Assembly (NCBI RefSeq): GCF_011320115.1
Contig: NZ_JAANOZ010000022.1
Span: 1-33,352, forward strand
Reading direction: 5' to 3'
Source: Croceibacterium segetis
GTDB taxonomy: Bacteria; Pseudomonadota; Alphaproteobacteria; Sphingomonadales; Sphingomonadaceae
Length of the DNA: 33,352 nt
The position numbers and the translations under genes are program-made. Shown in pieces: positions 1,052 through 33,352 of this stretch. The notes beneath the pieces were generated by a model that saw nothing but the letters and a program-made list of their open reading frames with translations, was not told the origin of the DNA and ran no database searches. Each line of letters starts with the position of its first letter. The first letter of the stretch is position 1.

Positions 1052-1235
1052 GGTGTTGTCAGAGCAACTGCACCAGTCGTTGGAGTGCGAGTTTGTCGGC
1101 ACCTTGGCGGTGTGATTGAGCTGAAATCTTGGCCAAGCGCCGCCGTTCCTGGAACTTTGCCGGCGACGAGAGCAAGACTGACAGCGCCACTTCTCTGCCG
1201 CGTAGAGGCTAAGGTGCAGTTGCTCTGACAGTGCC
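1052..1235 (+). mobile_element. MITE-like non-autonomous element, copy 1 (IS6-type ends)
   Basis: A 184-bp segment bounded by 23-bp imperfect inverted repeats (1052-1074 and 1213-1235) whose core is TGTCAGAGCAACTGCACC. It encodes nothing. A second copy in the same orientation lies at 3627-3800; the two share the ends and a strongly conserved internal block (TGGCCAA... to ...GACTGACAGC) while the left interior has diverged. The right end differs from the left end of the IS6-family element at 33221 at about 2 of 23 positions. Flanking octamers (ATTGCGGG, CGCGCGCG) do not form a target duplication. Confidence 0.75.
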
Positions 1236-1449
1236 CGCGCGCGGGATCGCGGGCCATTGTCACGCATGCCCGCGAGGGCGAGGCGTATCGCTCCCCGCCG
1301 CAGCTCCGCTCAGCCCATGCAGTATCCGCCGAAGCGCCGGAAACACGCCCCGCACTCCGTTTCGCATGAACAGCGATGCGCTTTTTCGAAAGCGTTTCCC
1401 TCGCTGACTTGGGTGGGTTATGAAATAGCCAAATTGAGGGGCGACTCAC

Positions 1450-1887
1450 ATGCATCTGCGCAAGTCGTTTTTGCTCGCAATGGTATGCCTCAGCATCTCG
1501 GGGTGCACGATCTTCGCCCCTCGTTTCGATCCATACGTCTCCGAAAAGACAAACTCGGCGTACACCGAGGTGGCTGAACTGTTGTCGGCCGCTGAACTTG
1601 GAAAGTATGCGAAAGCGGACACCTTCAAGGACGCGATTGACAAGTATGCGAGCATTGACGGTCAGCTTGCTGCCGCCGAGCAGCGCGTTACGCTGTTGAA
1701 TGCGCCGAGCAGGCCGAGCCAGACCGCTCGAGACTTGCTGGTGCGCCAGATCGAGAGTTGCCGGACTCAAGTAAAGAACCTCGCTCAAGATCACCGCACT
1801 AGCGGTATTCCGCCTGAGGCCGGCAGAACCGGACCCGTCTTGATTTCATGCGACATGGCGGCACGCGCCGCCGATGCGATGAAATAA
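1450..1887 (+). CDS. Predicted lipoprotein of unknown function
   Basis: A 145-residue protein with a lipoprotein signal peptide: positively charged start (MHLRK), hydrophobic core and the lipobox ISGC with the lipidated cysteine at residue 19. The mature part is mostly helical and hydrophilic (residues about 35-110), with a later Cys pair at about residues 103 and 134 that could form a disulphide. I do not recognise a family. A GAGGGG ribosome-binding site sits 8-10 bp before the ATG. The next gene starts 11 bp after its stop, so it opens a small operon with the unknown protein and, further on, a peptidoglycan-directed peptidase, which suggests a cell-envelope role. The operon lies between two mini-elements, so recent movement is possible. 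Confidence 0.75.
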   Translation: MHLRKSFLLAMVCLSISGCTIFAPRFDPYVSEKTNSAYTEVAELLSAAELGKYAKADTFKDAIDKYASIDGQLAAAEQRVTLLNAPSRPSQTARDLLVRQIESCRTQVKNLAQDHRTSGIPPEAGRTGPVLISCDMAARAADAMK

Positions 1888-1898
1888 GGAACATCGCC

Positions 1899-2288
1899 AT
1901 GGCTGATCTTTCCGCGTTCAATCCGAACAATGTCGATGATCTCGCCAGCAGGATTGTGCAACAAGTGTCGGGGGAGGCCAAGACTTGGTGGGACAAGAAT
2001 AGTGGACTCATGACCGGATATGTCCGGAGCCTGGCAGAGGCTGCCTTCCAAACGACGACTGCCCTGGCAAACGGCACGATTACCGCGGTGCAAGCCAACA
2101 GCGCCACCCGCGCCCAGAAACTTGCATTCGAGCAGACCGTCGAGTTCACGGAGTTCGAGACGCTCGTCCTGGCCCAGCGCATAGTGGACGCTGTCTTCAC
2201 AGTAATTGGCTGGGTCATCTACAACAGGACCGGGATCAACCTCACTCCGGGTCTTGTGCAACCGAAAGCTGCTGCCGGCGGCACCTGA
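1899..2288 (+). CDS. Hypothetical protein
   Basis: A 129-residue protein I cannot assign. It is predicted to be largely helical; residues about 90-112 (LVLAQRIVDAVFTVIGWVIY) form an amphipathic or weak membrane helix, and the tail is Gly/Ala rich. The start at 1899 is preferred because AAGGA lies 8 bp upstream; an in-frame upstream ATG at 1848 lies inside the lipoprotein gene. It follows the lipoprotein gene by 11 bp and precedes the cell-wall peptidase. A holin-like or pore-assisting role would fit such company, but the sequence alone does not show one. Confidence 0.7.
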   Translation: MADLSAFNPNNVDDLASRIVQQVSGEAKTWWDKNSGLMTGYVRSLAEAAFQTTTALANGTITAVQANSATRAQKLAFEQTVEFTEFETLVLAQRIVDAVFTVIGWVIYNRTGINLTPGLVQPKAAAGGT

Positions 2289-2289
2289 A

Positions 2290-2509
2290 CAATGGGGTCC
2301 GACAGGATCAGAGCACTGCACTCCGGTTGTGGGCAGGTCACAGGCGACCGGCACAGCTGCGAGCACACTGGACGCGAGAAGCAACGCCTCCATCCAACAA
2401 ACGTCCATCAAACTGTTCGCGCTTACAACTGCGCAGTCAGAACGCCGAGGCGTATGCAAGGATGGTGTTGCGTTACCAGCGCCTGATACAGGCGGGCGGG
2501 ATTCCATAA
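2290..2509 (+). pseudogene. Possible small frameshifted gene
   Basis: The 260 bp between the hypothetical gene and the peptidase gene hold two protein-like segments in different frames. The first (about 2330-2433) contains SQATGTAASTLDARSNASIQ. The second (about 2433-2509) contains NAEAYARMVLRYQRLIQAGG and ends at a TAA. A one-base slip near 2433 would join them into one short helical protein. No good start codon or ribosome site is visible for either piece alone. It may be a decayed member of the 1450-3250 operon, or simply intergenic sequence. Confidence 0.3.
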
Positions 2510-2548
2510 TGGAACTAACTTCGAGGTGCAGCTGAAGGGAGAGGTACA

Positions 2549-3250
2549 ATGGCAACTGGAGTCCAGATGCTTGAGCTGGCGAGAAGCCGGATTGACCAGC
2601 GCTACGTGAACGTATGCGTCCCCAAGAATAATCCAAACTGGCAAGGGCCCTGGGACTGCGCAGAGTTCATGTCGTGGCTCGTCTACCAGCTCACGAGAAG
2701 ACTTTATGGCTGTGTCGATGATGACGGAGATCCTGCGACCGTCGAGGCCTACACGGGCGCGTGGGAGAGAGACGCAAAGCGGCTCGGTCGGCTTGTTCCA
2801 TGGGAGCTGGCGGCCGGTATCGCGGGTGCGGTCCTGCTTCGGTATCCCCCGGTGCCCGGCAGCATGGGACACATTGTGGTGAGTGACGGCGTCGGAGGCA
2901 CGGTCGAGGCCATGGGGAAAAGATGGGGCGTAACAACGGGCAAGTCCTCGGGTCGGGACTGGGACACGGGAATACTGCTACCCGGGTTCGAGTACGACGC
3001 ACCAAGTCGCCTGGTCCTCTCACCGCCGGGGATCATCTACGCCATCGGGCGGCCAAGGCTGGACCCGGAGGTCACCAAGCGAATACAAACGGCGCTCCTC
3101 GGCTTTGGCGTTGACCCCGGGCCAGTTGATGGCGTTTTTGGCGCGAATACGACCGCCGCGGTGGCAGCGTTCCAGTCCATGAAGGGACTTGTTGCGGACG
3201 GGAAGGTTGGTAGACAAACCGCTCGCGCGCTAAAGATTTCGCTCGTTTAA
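2549..3250 (+). CDS. NlpC/P60- or CHAP-like peptidase with C-terminal peptidoglycan-binding domain
   Basis: A 233-residue predicted cell-wall hydrolase. Residues about 1-150 look like a papain-fold peptidase/amidase: a catalytic Cys37 in the PWDCAEFMSWL context and a His108 in GHIVVSDG, the order and spacing seen in NlpC/P60 and CHAP enzymes. Residues about 170-230 form a PG_binding_1 domain (IQTALLGFGVDPGPVDGVFG, then AVAAFQ and GKVGRQT). No signal peptide is visible, so export would need a partner (holin, type VI or another route) or the enzyme acts on lysis. A GGGAGAGG ribosome-binding site precedes the ATG. The context (lipoprotein, unknown small proteins, a DUF1353 stub downstream) resembles phage-lysis or tail-derived gene sets. 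The exact bond cleaved cannot be told from sequence. Confidence 0.78.
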   Translation: MATGVQMLELARSRIDQRYVNVCVPKNNPNWQGPWDCAEFMSWLVYQLTRRLYGCVDDDGDPATVEAYTGAWERDAKRLGRLVPWELAAGIAGAVLLRYPPVPGSMGHIVVSDGVGGTVEAMGKRWGVTTGKSSGRDWDTGILLPGFEYDAPSRLVLSPPGIIYAIGRPRLDPEVTKRIQTALLGFGVDPGPVDGVFGANTTAAVAAFQSMKGLVADGKVGRQTARALKISLV

Positions 3251-3513
3251 CAAGCTCGCATGAACCTTCTCTTGAGGACGGTCGGGTTGGAACGACTGGG
3301 CGAATCTCGCTGGCTGTTGTGACTCTTCGTGTGTCAACACTTCTGGCCATGCCGTTCTCGAATCAGCCGCGGATCAAGCCGCAGAGCGCCAATTTTTTAC
3401 TCGTTGCCCCTTCTTTCACAGAAGCCGAAAGTCGACTCTGCTTTGCTTGGTGTCGCCGGCACGATAGTGTCTCTGCGTAAGTATATTCGCGACTTCCGGG
3501 GATGTGCGCCGGT

Positions 3514-3626
3514 ATGCCGAATGCCCATTATGGCCATTACACAGGTAAGCTCATCTTTGAGCCCCTCCCCGACGGCAGGCGCATGCGGGTCTTGTGTGCT
3601 TTCGGGTTCATGGAAGCTGACGGCCT
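3514..3626 (+). pseudogene. 5' stub of a DUF1353 gene cut by a mini-element
   Basis: The frame starting at ATG 3514 (or 3502) reads YTGKLIFEPLPDGRRMRVL followed by FGFMEADG, which resembles the N-terminus of DUF1353 proteins, a small family often found among phage or tail genes. The reading runs into the left end of the mini-element at 3627 and then becomes meaningless, stopping at 3723. The remainder of the family (the PAGxxxDGASIP-type region) is not found on the right of the element, so the 3' part was lost as well as interrupted. Family assignment rests on a short stretch. Confidence 0.5.
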
Positions 3627-3800
3627 GGTGTTGTCAGAGCGACTGCACCGAGCCGACTGGGGACGTCATCTTCGTCTCCCGGGAGATGGGATTTTGGCCA
3701 AACGCCTCCGGTCCTGGAACTGAGCCGGCGACAAGAGCGAGACTGACAGCTCGGCCGCTCTGCCAGTCAGAGGTTAAGGTGCAGTTGCTCTGACAGCACC
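3627..3800 (+). mobile_element. MITE-like non-autonomous element, copy 2 (IS6-type ends)
   Basis: A 174-bp segment with 23-bp inverted ends (3627-3649 and 3778-3800), in the same orientation as the copy at 1052-1235. The two copies share the interior block with TCCTGGAACT and GCCGGCGAC. It cuts a DUF1353-like reading frame at its left end, and its right end lies 12 bp from the 3' end of the convergent membrane-protein gene. Flanking octamers (GACGGCCT, GTCTTCTA) do not match each other. Confidence 0.75.
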
Positions 3801-13338: not shown

Positions 13339-13401
13339 ATGTCCGCGTTCCACCCATTCCGGACATTCAGGGAATGCCCGCTTCGACCCATTGGGGACAT
13401 T
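13339..13401. repeat. Tandem pair of REP-like palindromic units
   Basis: Two 29-bp units, 34 bp apart: 13339-13367 (ATGTCCG ... CGGACAT ends, core TTCCACCCATT) and 13373-13401 (AATGCCCG ... GGGGACATT, core TTCGACCCATT). Each can fold into a short hairpin. The same core appears at 1031-1051, 29105-29170, 30421-30575, 31110-31202 and 32065-32192. They lie in the gap between the HWE kinase and the broken recombinase. Confidence 0.6.
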
Positions 13402-14930: not shown

Positions 14931-15382
14931 GCATCGAGCAGCGCATCGTTGCCATCGCGGCGATGTCATCGGCCGAGAAGAAGGCCGAGTGGCATCGCCA
15001 CACTGGCGCCTCCGCCCCGGCGGCGTTCGGCTCGGGTCTGCTCGGTCGGGCCCTCGCCAATGAAGCTCAGCTCAAGGTTTTCGGCGGCGGGCTGACCAAG
15101 GCCGAGCTGCGACGGTTGGCCCAGTGCAATCGTAAGGACGAGAACGTGCGCGATGGGGCGGCGACCGGTGCTGTCAAACCGGGTACCTGGCTGTCGCGAA
15201 CCTGGCATGGAGACACTCACAACGTCGTCGTGCTCGACAGAGGTTATGAGTACCGTGGCGCGCGGTATCGCTCGCTATCGGAAATTGCCCGGCTCATTAC
15301 TGGTGCGCAGTGGTCAGGCCCGCGCTTCTTCGGGCTGCACAGCCCACGGCTCGGAACGTTGAAGGTCAGCAGCGATGGCTAG
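14927..15382 (+). CDS. DUF2924 family protein
   Basis: A 151-residue protein with the DUF2924 pattern: GSGLLGRALANEAQLKVFGG in the N-terminal half, then KPGTWLSRTWHGDTHNVVVL and YRGARYRSLSEIARLITG in the C-terminal half. It is almost always found between DUF3489 and a large serine recombinase, and is thought to be part of the mobile module, possibly DNA-binding, but no biochemical role is established to my knowledge. It overlaps the previous gene by 4 bp and the recombinase by 8 bp, giving a tightly coupled three-gene operon. Confidence 0.88.
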   Translation: MSIEQRIVAIAAMSSAEKKAEWHRHTGASAPAAFGSGLLGRALANEAQLKVFGGGLTKAELRRLAQCNRKDENVRDGAATGAVKPGTWLSRTWHGDTHNVVVLDRGYEYRGARYRSLSEIARLITGAQWSGPRFFGLHSPRLGTLKVSSDG

Positions 15383-17045
15383 CGGAACTGCGAAGCACCC
15401 GCGCTGTGCCATCTACACGCGAAAGAGCACCGAGGAAGGGCTCGAGCAAGCGTTCAACAGCCTTGATGCCCAGCGCGAGGCATGCGCTGCCTACATCCTC
15501 TCGCAGCGTCACGAGGGCTGGACGCTGCATCCCGACCTCTACGATGATGGCGGGTTCACTGGCGGCAACATGGAACGTCCTGGGTTGCGGCGCCTGCTCA
15601 GCGATGTGCGAACGGGCCGGGTCGATGTCGTTGTTGTCTACAAGGTTGATCGGCTGACCCGCAGCCTCGCCGACTTCGCCAAGATTGTTGAGATACTCGA
15701 CAATGCCGGCGCGTCGTTCGTCAGCGTCACTCAGGCGTTCAATACCACCAACTCGATGGGCCGGTTGACGCTTAATGTCTTGCTCTCGTTCGCGCAGTTC
15801 GAGCGCGAGGTCATCTCCGAGCGCATCCGCGACAAGATCGCGGCGTCCAAAGCTCGGGGCATGTGGATGGGCGGGCCGGTTCCGCTCGGTTACCGGGTCG
15901 AAGAGCGCAAGCTCGTAGTTGTACCGGAAGAAGCTGAGCGGGTCCGTCACGTCATGCGGCGCTATCTTGAGTCGGCAAACGTGTTCGACCTGCTCGACAA
16001 GCTTCGGCTGGAGGGCGTGGTCAGCAAGGTGGCGAAGGGCAGAAATGGAACTATTCGCGGCGGCGTCTCATTCACGCGCGGCGCGGTGTACCACCTGCTG
16101 GCGAACCCAGTTTACATCGGGCTGACTAGACACCGCCAGAAGACCTACCCCGGTCAGCACGATGCCATCGTCGAGGCCGAACTTTTCGATGCGGTGCAGG
16201 CCCGCCTTGCCGAACGGACCAATCCCCGCACGTCGCCCCGCGCCAAGCGCTGCGTCAGTCTGCTGGCCGGTCTGATCTATGATGAGAAGGGCAGGCCGAT
16301 GTCGCCGTGCCACACGCGCAACCACGGCCGGCGCTACAGCTACTATGCTTCCAACAAGGCCGACGGATCGAAAGAGTCCGCTCTGCGCCTACCAGCCGGC
16401 GAGCTAGATGCTGCAGTCCGCAACGCGCTCACCTCACTGCTCGCCAACTCCGGAACCTTGCGGTCGCATCTCCCCGAGATCGAGGCATCGGACTATTTCG
16501 CACTTGCTGACCATTGCAACGATCTCGCCGAGCGCCTTCGCGCGATGACCATCTCCGAAGTGCGTAACCTGTTTTCGCAGCTCAGGCTGGAAGCTGTGGT
16601 CAGTCGGCACGAGGTCGCTGCAACCATCAGTTCGCAGGCGCTCCTCGCTCTGGCCGACCTCGAGCATCACGCTGATGCTCGTGTCTCTCTCGCTGTCCCT
16701 ACGATCGCCGCAACCTTCGGTCATGAGCAGCGCCTGCGACTGGACGCCCCAACTTCGGGTGCGATGCCAAGAGATGCGCGTCTGGTCGAATTGGTCGCCC
16801 GTGGATTCGCGAGTCGGGACCAGCTCCTGGCGATGGACGGCCAGGAGCTCGCAGCAATGCGGCTCACCCAGTACCGCCACCTCGAACGCACCGCACGTCT
16901 CGCCTACCTCGCTCCTGACATCATTCGCGCAATCCTCGACGGGCGTCAGCCAAAGTCGCTCAGCGCCCGCATGCTGGCGCGGCTCGGTTCGTTGCCGATG
17001 AGCTGGTCCGAGCAGCGCGTGATGCTAGGGTTCGAGGGCGCCTGA
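15375..17045 (+). CDS. Large serine recombinase
   Basis: A 556-residue site-specific recombinase. The resolvase-type catalytic domain spans about 9-160: CAIYTRKSTEEG with nucleophile Ser18, then VDVVVVYKVDRLTRSLADF and FEREVISERIRDKI. The Recombinase domain follows at about 175-285 (VPLGYRV, GAVYHLLANPVYIG). The region 300-345 (LLAGLIYDEKGRPMSPCHTR, YYASNK) is where a zinc ribbon usually lies, here with few cysteines. The C-terminal 200 residues are less conserved. Gene order with DUF3489 and DUF2924 is the standard module; it may still move an element or be a resident relic. It is full length and undisturbed, unlike the recombinases on either side. A rho-independent terminator follows at 17163. 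Confidence 0.93.
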   Translation: MASGTAKHPRCAIYTRKSTEEGLEQAFNSLDAQREACAAYILSQRHEGWTLHPDLYDDGGFTGGNMERPGLRRLLSDVRTGRVDVVVVYKVDRLTRSLADFAKIVEILDNAGASFVSVTQAFNTTNSMGRLTLNVLLSFAQFEREVISERIRDKIAASKARGMWMGGPVPLGYRVEERKLVVVPEEAERVRHVMRRYLESANVFDLLDKLRLEGVVSKVAKGRNGTIRGGVSFTRGAVYHLLANPVYIGLTRHRQKTYPGQHDAIVEAELFDAVQARLAERTNPRTSPRAKRCVSLLAGLIYDEKGRPMSPCHTRNHGRRYSYYASNKADGSKESALRLPAGELDAAVRNALTSLLANSGTLRSHLPEIEASDYFALADHCNDLAERLRAMTISEVRNLFSQLRLEAVVSRHEVAATISSQALLALADLEHHADARVSLAVPTIAATFGHEQRLRLDAPTSGAMPRDARLVELVARGFASRDQLLAMDGQELAAMRLTQYRHLERTARLAYLAPDIIRAILDGRQPKSLSARMLARLGSLPMSWSEQRVMLGFEGA

Positions 17046-28959: not shown

Positions 28960-29212
28960 TGCGGCGCGCCCCTAGCAGCGCATCGCAGCAATCCCAACTA
29001 ATGGATCCTAGCACCCCCCCTCTGCCCGTTGGTGATCAGGGTGGGGGCTGCTCTTTTACAAGTTCGTCCTAAACCGGACGGTCTGCTAACGGCCATTCCA
29101 AGCCATTCAAGCGTGCTGCGACGGAATGTCCGCTTAGGGTCGTTTCCAGACCGACCGCTAACGGTGGAACACGGACGTTTTTTGTTCCGTCGTTAGAAGA
29201 GCTCCCCCGTCG
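28960..29212. repeat. Intergenic region with REP-like repeats
   Basis: The ABC-F promoter should lie at the left end. A C-run/G-run pair (GCACCCCCCC and GGGTGGGGGC, 29010-29051) could form a hairpin. From about 29105 to 29175 there are GGAATGTCCGCTTAGGGTCG-type and GACCGCTAACGGTGGAACACG-type repeat pieces of the dispersed family. No gene. Confidence 0.45.
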
Positions 29213-30241
29213 TCAGCGCCCAGGCGGCGCGATCGGTTGGAACATCCCGCCGGTGATCCTGCCGTCGGCGTCAAGCGCGGCCGACATGATCACGCCGCCG
29301 TTAGCGAACACGAGGTCGAAGGCGTCGTCGCCCATCTCGCCTCGCCCGAGGAAAGTCATCGACTTCAGCTGGCCCATCGAGCTGAACAGCGGACGTGTCC
29401 TAGGCAGGTCCTGGCGGACCACTTGGGCGAACTGCGGAGAGAGCTTGCCATAGTCGGGCGAGCCGCTCGCCACCCCCGCGACAAACCCACGCAACGCAGC
29501 TTCGGTGCCGGGGGCTGGCGCCGAGCCGCTCAACGGTCGGAGAATGCCGCCGGCCATCCTGCCGTCGCTGTCGAGCCCGGCCGACATGATCGCCGAACCG
29601 TTGGCAAACACCAAGTGGTAGGCGTCGCCGCCCATCCCGTCGCGCCCGAGGAAAGTCACCGACTTCAGCTCGCCCATCGAGCTGAACATGGGATGCGTCA
29701 CGGGCAGGTCCCGGCGGACGATCGGGGCAAACTGCGGAGAGAGCTTGTCGTAGTCGGGCGAGCCGCTCGCCAGCCCGGCGACAAGCGTTCGCAAGACAGC
29801 CTCGGTGCCGGGGGTCGGCACTGCGCCGGGGGTGAGTGCCGGTTGTCCAGCCGGCGCCACCTGTTGGTTATTGGCCGCTTGCGAGAAGCCTGCGGGCTGC
29901 AAAAGAAAGGCGAGCACAGTAGCTCCAAGCATAATCATGATGGGCACTCCCAGCACTGTTAGACGAGTGACGCCTGAGTGTAGCGGGAGAGGATCAGCAA
30001 CAAGGTCCGGCGATTGGGGTACCGCTTGGCCGTACCCTTCGGCCTCACCGAGCATCCGGGCGGCTTCCAAGGACGAAGTCGCGCCAAGCTTGGTGCGCGC
30101 CATCTTGAGTCGCTTCTCGATTGCATGGTGCGAAACGCCGAGATCTGCGGCGATTTCCTTGGCAGACCTGTGCTGTAGCCATTGCCGCAGGCAAACCTTC
30201 TCGCGCTCAGTCAATCTCGAGAGTGACTCGCCGTCGTCCAT
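29213..30241 (-). CDS. LuxR-type HTH protein with TM helix and duplicated C-terminal domain
   Basis: A 342-residue protein. A GerE/LuxR-type HTH at about 8-62 (LTEREKVCLRQWLQHRSAKE, IAADLGVSHHAIEKRLKMAR) is followed by a single TM helix at about 93-115, then two 100-residue repeats in the probable periplasm (144-243 and 244-342). Each repeat reads PGTEA..., SGSPDY.KLSPQFA, DLP, FSSMG.LKS.TFLGR, LVFANG and DGR..GG. The start at 30241 is chosen because the GTG at 30334 lies in repeat DNA. The layout suggests a one-component membrane-bound regulator with an outside sensor; the C-terminal domain resembles those appended to some secreted hydrolases. No signal or target is known. Confidence 0.8.
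   Translation of the reverse strand: MDDGESLSRLTEREKVCLRQWLQHRSAKEIAADLGVSHHAIEKRLKMARTKLGATSSLEAARMLGEAEGYGQAVPQSPDLVADPLPLHSGVTRLTVLGVPIMIMLGATVLAFLLQPAGFSQAANNQQVAPAGQPALTPGAVPTPGTEAVLRTLVAGLASGSPDYDKLSPQFAPIVRRDLPVTHPMFSSMGELKSVTFLGRDGMGGDAYHLVFANGSAIMSAGLDSDGRMAGGILRPLSGSAPAPGTEAALRGFVAGVASGSPDYGKLSPQFAQVVRQDLPRTRPLFSSMGQLKSMTFLGRGEMGDDAFDLVFANGGVIMSAALDADGRITGGMFQPIAPPGR
29216..29812 (-). repeat. Tandem 300-bp coding duplication
   Basis: Copy 1 (29513-29812) and copy 2 (29216-29512) lie in exactly 300-bp register and remain clearly similar at DNA level, for example around 29256 and 29556 and around 29341 and 29641. Together they encode the two C-terminal domains of the LuxR-HTH protein. 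Confidence 0.85.
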
Positions 30242-30420: not shown

Positions 30421-30575
30421 AATGGGTCGAAAGCAGACGTTTGGCTGGATTGCCCCGTTTGGGTCGAAAGCAGACATTTGGTGAATGTCGGGTTTGGACC
30501 GTATGCAGACCGTCCGATTTGAAGGTCCGCTTTTGCGGCGGGCACGTCTGCAATGGGTGGAAAGAGGACATTGCC
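30421..30575. repeat. Cluster of four degenerate REP-like units
   Basis: Units at 30421-30444, 30458-30481, 30493-30516 and 30552-30575 share the pattern (A/T)TGGGTCGAAAGCAGAC.TT; the first two are nearly identical and the others degenerate. A related TGTCTGCTTTCCCACTCAT piece lies at 30319-30338. They fill the divergent region between the LuxR-HTH and SnoaL-like genes, so they may affect both promoters. Confidence 0.6.
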
Positions 30576-31109: not shown

Positions 31110-31202
31110 ATGTCCGCAATTGATGTCGTGTCCTCCTCTCCACACTGACCGGCAAAACTGCCGGCCGAATGGAGCGCCGTCCACGACATCAATTGCGGAC
31201 AT
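31110..31202. repeat. Perfect 21-bp inverted repeat with inner hairpin
   Basis: Arms 31110-31130 and 31182-31202 are exact reverse complements beginning ATGTCCGCAATTG. Between them a second hairpin CCGGCA-AAAC-TGCCGG sits at 149-164 (31149-31164). The 93-bp unit lies directly after the SnoaL gene and 41 bp before the CPBP gene. It may be a transcript-end structure, a paired REP (BIME-like) or a tiny mobile unit. The outer arms share ATGTCCGC with the dispersed repeats. Confidence 0.75.
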
Positions 31203-32064: not shown

Positions 32065-32192
32065 AAGGTCCGCTTTCCACCGTTAGCCGTCGTCGAACGA
32101 CGCCTAGGCGCCCCATGCCTGATGGTGAGTTCTTCGCTCGCGCAATCCGCAACGCAGAACGACAGCTTTTCCGGGAATTGCGGACATTCCGG
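32065..32192. repeat. REP-like units in the gap after the CPBP gene
   Basis: Two degenerate units: AAGGTCCGCTTTCCACCG at 32065-32082 and AATTGCGGACATTCCGG at 32176-32192, in opposite sense. No gene is supported in the 290-bp gap. Confidence 0.5.
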
Positions 32193-32962: not shown

Positions 32963-33220
32963 GGGAGCAGGGCCTCCAGTTCATTAGGTATCCTTCTCCA
33001 GCAAGCGAAGTGCCCGTGAATGCTGTGAGGCAATAACGACAGCTGGTCTGACGCACAATTGAATTGCGCTACGGAGCAGTGGGCAATGAGGCCGATAGGC
33101 GGCTCGCCTTCTCGGACCATGCGCTGCTGCCCCTTTCACGTCTCCTAATTGATGCTCCAGCGCCGAGCAGTCGACCAGGAAGGCGAGATCCTCGAGAGCT
33201 ACGTTACCAGGACGCGCGAC
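32963..33220. other. Gap before the insertion sequence
   Basis: No supported gene. It must hold the promoter of the orphan HTH gene. The IS6-family left end begins at 33221, so the original neighbour may have been displaced. Confidence 0.4.
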
Positions 33221-33352
33221 GGCTCTGTCAGAGCAAATGCACCACCTGGTAAGGAACTAAGGGCACGGCAGGACCATGCCTCGTCCGAAGAAGCCTCATA
33301 GCCCGTTCCGCTATTTCAACTCCTCGCCGGAGGTGATCCGGCTGGTGGTGAT
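33221..33352 (+). mobile_element. Left end of an IS6-family insertion sequence (partial)
   Basis: The terminal repeat starts GGCTCTGTCAGAGCAAATGC at 33221, followed 33 bp later by the transposase ATG. It shares TGTCAGAGCAA and the closing TGCACC with the ends of the two mini-elements at 1052 and 3627. The element continues beyond the window. Confidence 0.8.
33276..33352 (+). CDS. IS6-family transposase, N-terminal part
   Basis: Twenty-five codons are visible: MPRPKKPHSPFRYFNSSPEV and IRLVV, the start of a sphingomonad-type IS6-family DDE transposase. The catalytic region lies beyond the window. GGCAGGA gives a ribosome-binding site. Confidence 0.85.
   Translation, partial: MPRPKKPHSPFRYFNSSPEVIRLVV

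Follow-up and report, generated by a model that had tools for sequence, protein, structure and literature searches.

The whole of contig NZ_JAANOZ010000022.1 of Croceibacterium segetis, a stretch of 33,352 bp that is referred to as the window and constitutes contig C15 of the host genome (G000; 3,284,002 bases in 42 contigs), contains two short segments which probably represent a non-autonomous family of mini-elements linked to the IS6 family of insertion sequences (IS). The family resembles miniature inverted-repeat transposable elements (MITEs), and its members are most likely moved in trans by the IS6-family transposase residing in the same genome. Both termini of these mini-elements correspond to the left end (LE) of the IS and, in most copies, a motif corresponding to its right end (RE) is located in the interior, which illustrates that they differ from simple deletion products of the IS, in which its two ends would form the termini.

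Architecture and copies of the mini-elements

An initial annotation of the window had described both segments as stretches with 23-bp inverted ends that encode nothing. Both were located, and their ends form near-perfect repeats, reading GGTGTTGTCAGAGCAACTGCACC in copy 1 (1052-1074, compared to the inverted stretch 1213-1235) and GGTGTTGTCAGAGCGACTGCACC in copy 2 (3627-3649, compared to the inverted stretch 3778-3800). The 18-mer TGTCAGAGCAACTGCACC is found, at up to four mismatches, at five window sites only, which are the four mini-element ends and the left end of the IS (33226), and the pattern TGTCAGAGCAAMTGCACC (with M at the variable base and up to two mismatches) gave 17 matches genome-wide compared to none for its reversed control. 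In their size of 174 and 184 bp, their terminal inverted repeats and the lack of a transposase open reading frame (ORF), the segments have the properties of MITEs. The ORFs crossing them are exclusively entries of a mechanical list compiled without homology test, which fits the initial description as non-coding, and neither promoter- nor terminator-like sites were found within the two window copies. Their inverted ends fold into a strong hairpin, with z-scores of -4.7 (copy 2, as DNA) and -4.2 (copy 1, as RNA).

A search with copy 1 revealed six full mini-elements in the host genome, comprising the two window copies and those at C19:18401-18580, C4:685-857, C4:3124-3297 and C20:1541-1714. Similarity among them spans from the GG to the CC terminus and is lost outside, where the flanks are unrelated. 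As is characteristic of MITEs, the family is thus represented by multiple, sharply delimited copies at sites unrelated to each other, and not by the single occurrence at fixed positions that the initial annotation had named as an observation speaking against its proposal. All 12 ends of the six copies start with GG and carry a G at position 7, in line with the description of IS6/IS26 terminal repeats in the available text of PMC6807381; in some copies from other genomes the first two bases deviate (GA in L065 and L130, AG in L041). The host copies fall into two subtypes, the first consisting of copy 1 and the C19 element (89% identical) and the second of copy 2 and the C4a, C4b and C20 elements (86-94% among themselves), with 71-76% identity between subtypes. 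The two window copies are 82% identical across their right-hand 114 bp. A seventh match of 25 bases (G000:C11:8426-8450) shows no end repeats in the surrounding 230 bp and was excluded from the count.

Judged by the positions of profile matches, mini-elements that neighbour each other within 12 kb are in direct orientation in all seven pairs, three of which are located in one contig of genome G224. The window pair brackets 2.4 kb carrying a gene with a peptidoglycan-binding domain; when the best two candidates per genome were scored, this stretch found matches in 12 of 397 genomes of the host's taxonomic family, the host included, the other 11 by stretches of 24-60 bases only.

As a separate observation, a second dispersed repeat around GTCGGCTTTCCACCCATTGCGG occurs in both orientations at 1026-1055, 13339-13364, 29152-29179, 30543-30572 and 32065-32092. 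One of its copies overlaps the first bases of mini-element 1, and a related stretch is found in the left flank of the C4b element.

An inner right-end site at two fixed spacings

In most copies, an LE at the left is followed by an inner RE facing as a right end, by a spacer of either 34-35 or 44-46 bp and by an inverted LE. The right half carries the sequence CGGCGACAAG-AGCG-AGACTGACAGC, which can be aligned with the right end of the IS (CGGAGACAAGTTGCGATTAGACTGACAGC). The alignment covers 14 bases in copy 1 (1175-1188) with a score of 23 and reaches a score of 26 in copy 2, in both cases at 46 bp from the right terminal motif and at a level attained by none of 300 shuffles. The same holds for 15 of the 19 mini-elements when their interiors were shuffled 300 times. 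In an alignment of ten representatives from G000, G004, G017 and G224 (three genera, 63% mean identity), the RE window ranks first among 112 internal windows in its conservation (1.87 bits compared to a mean of 1.06).

After removal of duplicate strand readings and of the artefact row L039 +, the distance between RE and outer repeat amounts to 44-46 bp in the host, 46 in G004, 34-35 in G017 and G224, and 34 in G127 and G253; the plan of two outer LEs and one inner RE is thus seen in six genomes from five genera. A weak match in G258 also shows a spacing of 46, with a degenerate outer repeat. Spacings of 36 (G253), 53 (G224) and 40 bp (G258) are second, spurious pairings and were discarded.

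The resident IS6-family element

The initial annotation had assigned an IS6 element with nearly the same end as the mini-elements to position 33221. The match of the LE type at this location bears out the similarity of the end, and the copy itself is cut by the contig border at 33352, for which reason its other end was read from other copies. Complete copies are found in the host on contigs C4 and C42, with further ones split by contig ends. The C4 transposase of 238 amino acids matches PF13610 with an E-value of 1.2e-41, as expected for an IS6-type DDE transposase, and the first 25 residues encoded in the window are 96% identical to it. The LE of the window IS is immediately preceded by 57 bp derived from a second transposase gene, which suggests that the IS inserted into, or became linked to, a further copy (Table 1).

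The best 80 relatives of the IS are 83-92% identical and nearly all carry Sphingomonadales names, with three loci named Microvirga. Among the 58 of 80 fetched relative loci in which ends were read, an LE resembling GGNNCTGTCARAGCAAATGCACC is present in 53 (none was found in the other 5), and an RE whose reverse complement starts at about GGTGCTGTCAGTCT equally in 53, with 4 loci lacking one and 1 spurious assignment. Complete copies mostly measure 832-842 bp. The initial annotation had considered that a different end on the other side of the complete IS would contradict its proposal, and this applies in part: in the aligned host copies, left and right end agree, as judged by eye, at 15 of 23 positions, including 9 of the outer 11. 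A profile of the mini-elements matched IS copies at their ends only. Locus L115 comprises a complete IS6 copy and, within 56 bp past its right end, an inverted left-type repeat that resembles the right part of mini-elements L130 and L141.

Table 1. Coordinates of the mini-elements and of IS6-derived features in the window.
Feature	Position	Strand	Remarks
Mini-element copy 1, 184 bp	1052..1235	+	Boundaries from alignment of six genomic copies with unrelated flanks; 89% identical to G000:C19:18401-18580
Copy 1, left terminal repeat, IS6 left-end type (LE)	1052..1074	+	
Copy 1, internal site matching IS6 right end (RE), facing as right end	1175..1188	-	Local alignment
Copy 1, right terminal repeat, inverted LE type	1213..1235	-	
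Mini-element copy 2, 174 bp	3627..3800	+	86-90% identical to three other genome copies; boundaries from six-copy alignment
Copy 2, left terminal repeat, LE type	3627..3649	+	
Copy 2, internal RE-type site	3726..3750	-	Local alignment to IS right end
Copy 2, right terminal repeat, inverted LE type	3778..3800	-	
57-bp fragment of second IS6 transposase gene	33164..33220	+	86% and 89% identical to matching stretches of C4 and C42
Left part of IS6-family element (LE 33221-33243; transposase start 33276)	33221..33352	+	90% identical to complete C4 and C42 copies

Distribution and co-occurrence with the transposase

A sequence model built from 19 copies found mini-elements in 10 of the 397 genomes, the host included, and in 9 of 96 genera, where copy numbers and absences are lower bounds since the best seven candidates per genome were scored. 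Genome G004 holds mini-elements at nine places, and no match to the model was obtained in G001 and G003, which belong to the same genus as the host. A DNA search with copy 2, scoring the best two candidates per genome, matched 6 of 397 genomes, with G156 and G276 contributing short parts only. Neither plasmids nor phages yielded a match to the mini-element, an exact-pattern scan for paired ends in the genome_contigs collection returned none, and the single match of the 18-mer in viral contigs has no partner repeat nearby.

In a survey of 28 hand-chosen genomes, a related IS6 transposase is present in 8 of the 10 that bear mini-elements and in all 4 that were picked for end motifs or partial matches. 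Among the 14 comparison genomes lacking mini-element or end-motif matches it is found in 2, in one case as fragments (G018) and in the other as a 40% relative (G021). It is from this co-occurrence that we infer mobilization in trans by the resident enzyme. The initial proposal of MITEs cross-mobilized by an IS6-type transposase is thus upheld with respect to multiple copies, exact boundaries, LE-type ends and co-occurrence with a related transposase, while the movement itself is likely.

Breakpoints at host copies and points against mobilization

Three of the six host copies (C4b, C19 and C20) interrupt a conserved gene, the remainder of which is missing from the other side of the element, as expected of an IS6-type replicative rearrangement. 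The three are those host copies whose flanks allowed a comparison of this kind. We take these genes to be superoxide-dismutase-like (C4b), SRAP-like (C19) and VirB2-like (C20). The breakpoints emerged from a search with the joined flanks of four copies against 59 genomes, own included, in which the best six candidates per genome were scored. To the left of C4b lies the beginning of a gene that continues uninterrupted across the corresponding position in its relatives at G000:C23 and G004:C53; the right flank of C4b matches, from base 49 on, other loci in G004 and G031. The sequence to the left of C19 likewise corresponds to the first part of a gene, which extends further in its relative at G000:C21, and the right flank of C20 is part of a gene whose relatives continue past the edge of the element. 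The flanks opposite to the three cuts showed no match, over up to 700 bp, to the remainder of the respective genes.

Several observations weigh against the described interpretation. None of 18 mini-elements (copy L063, for which there were no coordinates, was left out) is flanked by the 8-bp target duplication for which the initial annotation had advised to search, nor by an adjacent direct repeat of 2-12 bp or, allowing slack, by one of at least 6 bp, which leaves single insertion events unproved. A clean empty site, for which a search had likewise been advised, was not found among the best six candidates per genome. In the four same-genus genomes, the flanks in the window find matches only at a response-regulator gene, with 67-69% identity; one of the four, G002, whose genome is 73% complete, shows none. 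The mini-element L174 (G004:C54:12861-12970) adjoins a relative of the right flank of C4b, in an orientation opposite to the host copy, and this place may consequently be an old or shared site, or a favoured one. The divergence of 6-29% among host copies argues against a recent burst. With respect to architecture, both outer repeats of the mini-element are of the left type, while the IS has one end of each. The comparison of the RE to shuffled interiors is unclear in 4 of 19 copies (C19, g17_43, g4_36 and g224b, with 8, 6, 35 and 1 of 300 shuffles, respectively), and the searches used revealed paired ends without an RE in L041, L130, L141 and L193, the last of which is the match in G138. Finally, three of the ten genomes counted as bearing mini-elements (G086, G316 and G138) do so by weak single matches with E-values of 2.6e-4 to 5.7e-4, and two (G127 and G316) are devoid of the related transposase.

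The missing target duplication is common to mini-elements and IS. None of 81 complete IS sequences, defined as distinct LE-RE pairs at a distance of 740-900 bp, a few of which may pair ends of nested copies, is flanked by an exact repeat of at least 7 bp, even when 4 bp of slack are permitted, and shorter repeats are near expectation except for one 5-bp match where 0.06 would be expected. According to the sections available from a review of the family (PMC7986276), IS26 need not carry flanking repeats, which are lost upon intramolecular transposition. We thus do not treat the lack of the 8-bp duplication as excluding IS6 membership, and the formal assignment to IS6/IS26 is a tentative one.

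Alternative explanations

The LE-like character of both outer repeats and the two mini-bearing genomes without the resident clade would also be compatible with mini-elements that were moved by, or derived from, a different IS6-type transposase, whose element would carry ends of the left type at either side. Such an arrangement appears to exist in G156 (L060, G156:C3), where inward-facing LE-type repeats, identical for 36 bp, surround a more distant IS6 transposase of 51% identity. However, the second LE at this locus belongs to an inverted fragment of an IS start located beyond a right-end-like sequence of the first element, which looks like a nested rearrangement rather than a true element with two left ends. 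Since, in addition, the presence of mini-elements tracks that of the resident clade, whose right end is matched by the inner site, we regard this explanation as unlikely.

Still less probable in our judgement is a view of the segments as scars, in which nested insertions and deletions of IS6 would have left behind remnants without mobility. IS6 fragments do abut IS ends in the window (33164-33220) and in G156, and mini-elements are located at rearrangement breakpoints that lack target duplications, but a common plan of about 160-184 bp, with the internal sequence and the RE spacing shared as well, is seen in five genera and at nine places in G004, and scars formed independently would not have internal sequence in common.

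It is very improbable, and disfavoured by the present data, that the segments represent genes for structured RNAs, terminators or another type of fixed repeat with a chance resemblance to IS6 ends, as the strong hairpin might suggest, since the fold is accounted for by the inverted ends themselves, the window copies lack promoter- or terminator-like sites, an Rfam search of four of the six host loci gave one match that is below the gathering score and outside the mini-element, the copies cut genes and two genomes of the same genus are without a match.

A tentative model of transposition

With the segments viewed as mobile mini-elements dependent on the resident transposase, we consider it possible, in a tentative model, that they act as tripartite mini-transposons, in which two outer IS6 left ends would be cut and joined and the inner RE, at one of two fixed spacings, would provide an accessory site for transposase binding. 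The asymmetric tandem end created in this way may compete well with the LE/RE pair of the parent element, and the mini-element would constitute a mobile point of rearrangement that leaves no target duplications. In our preferred interpretation, which does not depend on such an accessory site, the transposase would pair the two outer left-type ends and the element would move by the replicative, cointegrate-forming route of IS6, giving rise to deletions, inversions or fusions rather than clean insertions. With less confidence, we propose that the right side would function as a tandem end composed of the outer LE and the inner RE, that the latter may have been kept because the transposase would bind it, and that the two spacings, which are about one helical turn apart, could hold both sites on one face of the DNA. 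As a possible origin of the mini-elements, an IS may have lost its internal part and acquired an additional left end, in inverted orientation, next to its right end. A neighbourhood of nested IS6 pieces in G156 resembles this arrangement.

Other features of the window

Apart from IS6-related sequences, the window contains a large serine recombinase ORF with resolvase and recombinase domains (15375-17045), which may mark an integrated element, and two neighbouring copies of a 295-bp unit of 81% identity within an ORF with a LuxR-type regulator domain (29234-29828). A 33-bp inverted repeat (85%) with a loop of 27 bp is found at 31110-31202, where the second arm and the start listed for a CAAX-protease-like ORF overlap.

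Relation to known systems

IS6-family elements drive much of genome rearrangement and, to our knowledge, it is not settled how their transposase uses its ends. By keeping two left ends and an inner RE at fixed spacing, the mini-element suggests which DNA sites suffice for mobilization, and it offers a small substrate for testing the use of ends by an IS6 transposase. Gene-free IS6 derivatives, which are easily overlooked in annotation, can also mark breakpoints of rearrangement. In the available sections of the IS6 review, one transposition pathway is described as unknown at present (PMC7986276).

Similarities to described elements extend to several systems, each known to us from parts of the respective reports. 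IS26-like elements and pseudo-compound transposons share with the host mini-elements the GG ends with a G at position 7 and the occurrence of pairs in direct orientation, and they equally do not need flanking repeats after intramolecular events (PMC7986276). In contrast to IS26-like elements, the mini-elements encode nothing, and the ends of the resident clade are about 23 bp long and asymmetric. MITECca01 of Cardinium, an IS982-derived element of about 240 bp (PMC9769881), is likewise non-autonomous and thought to depend on a resident parental IS; it belongs to another IS family, and an inner copy of the opposite IS end is not mentioned in the sections available. A 142-bp MITE on the Sulfolobus plasmid pTC1 (PMC4390865) is similarly short and located on a plasmid that also carries the IS6-family element ISSte1; it is archaeal and, in the available text, not linked to the ends of ISSte1. 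A limited search of the literature returned no element in which a double left end is combined with an inner right end at a fixed distance.

The closest precedents are two IS6-family MITEs of 227 and 336 bp, which are built of both IS ends without an ORF (PMC7986276), and the remark in the initial annotation that non-autonomous IS6 derivatives are rarely described appears fair in light of this small number in the portions of the review at hand. The mini-elements are, like these, short, devoid of ORFs and linked to IS6 ends. Unlike the described elements, where both IS ends form the termini, both of their outer ends are of the left type, the RE is internal in most copies and their length amounts to about 160-184 bp. 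MITEs of the IS6 family are thus already on record, and the combination of two left-type termini with an inner right end constitutes a new variation on them.

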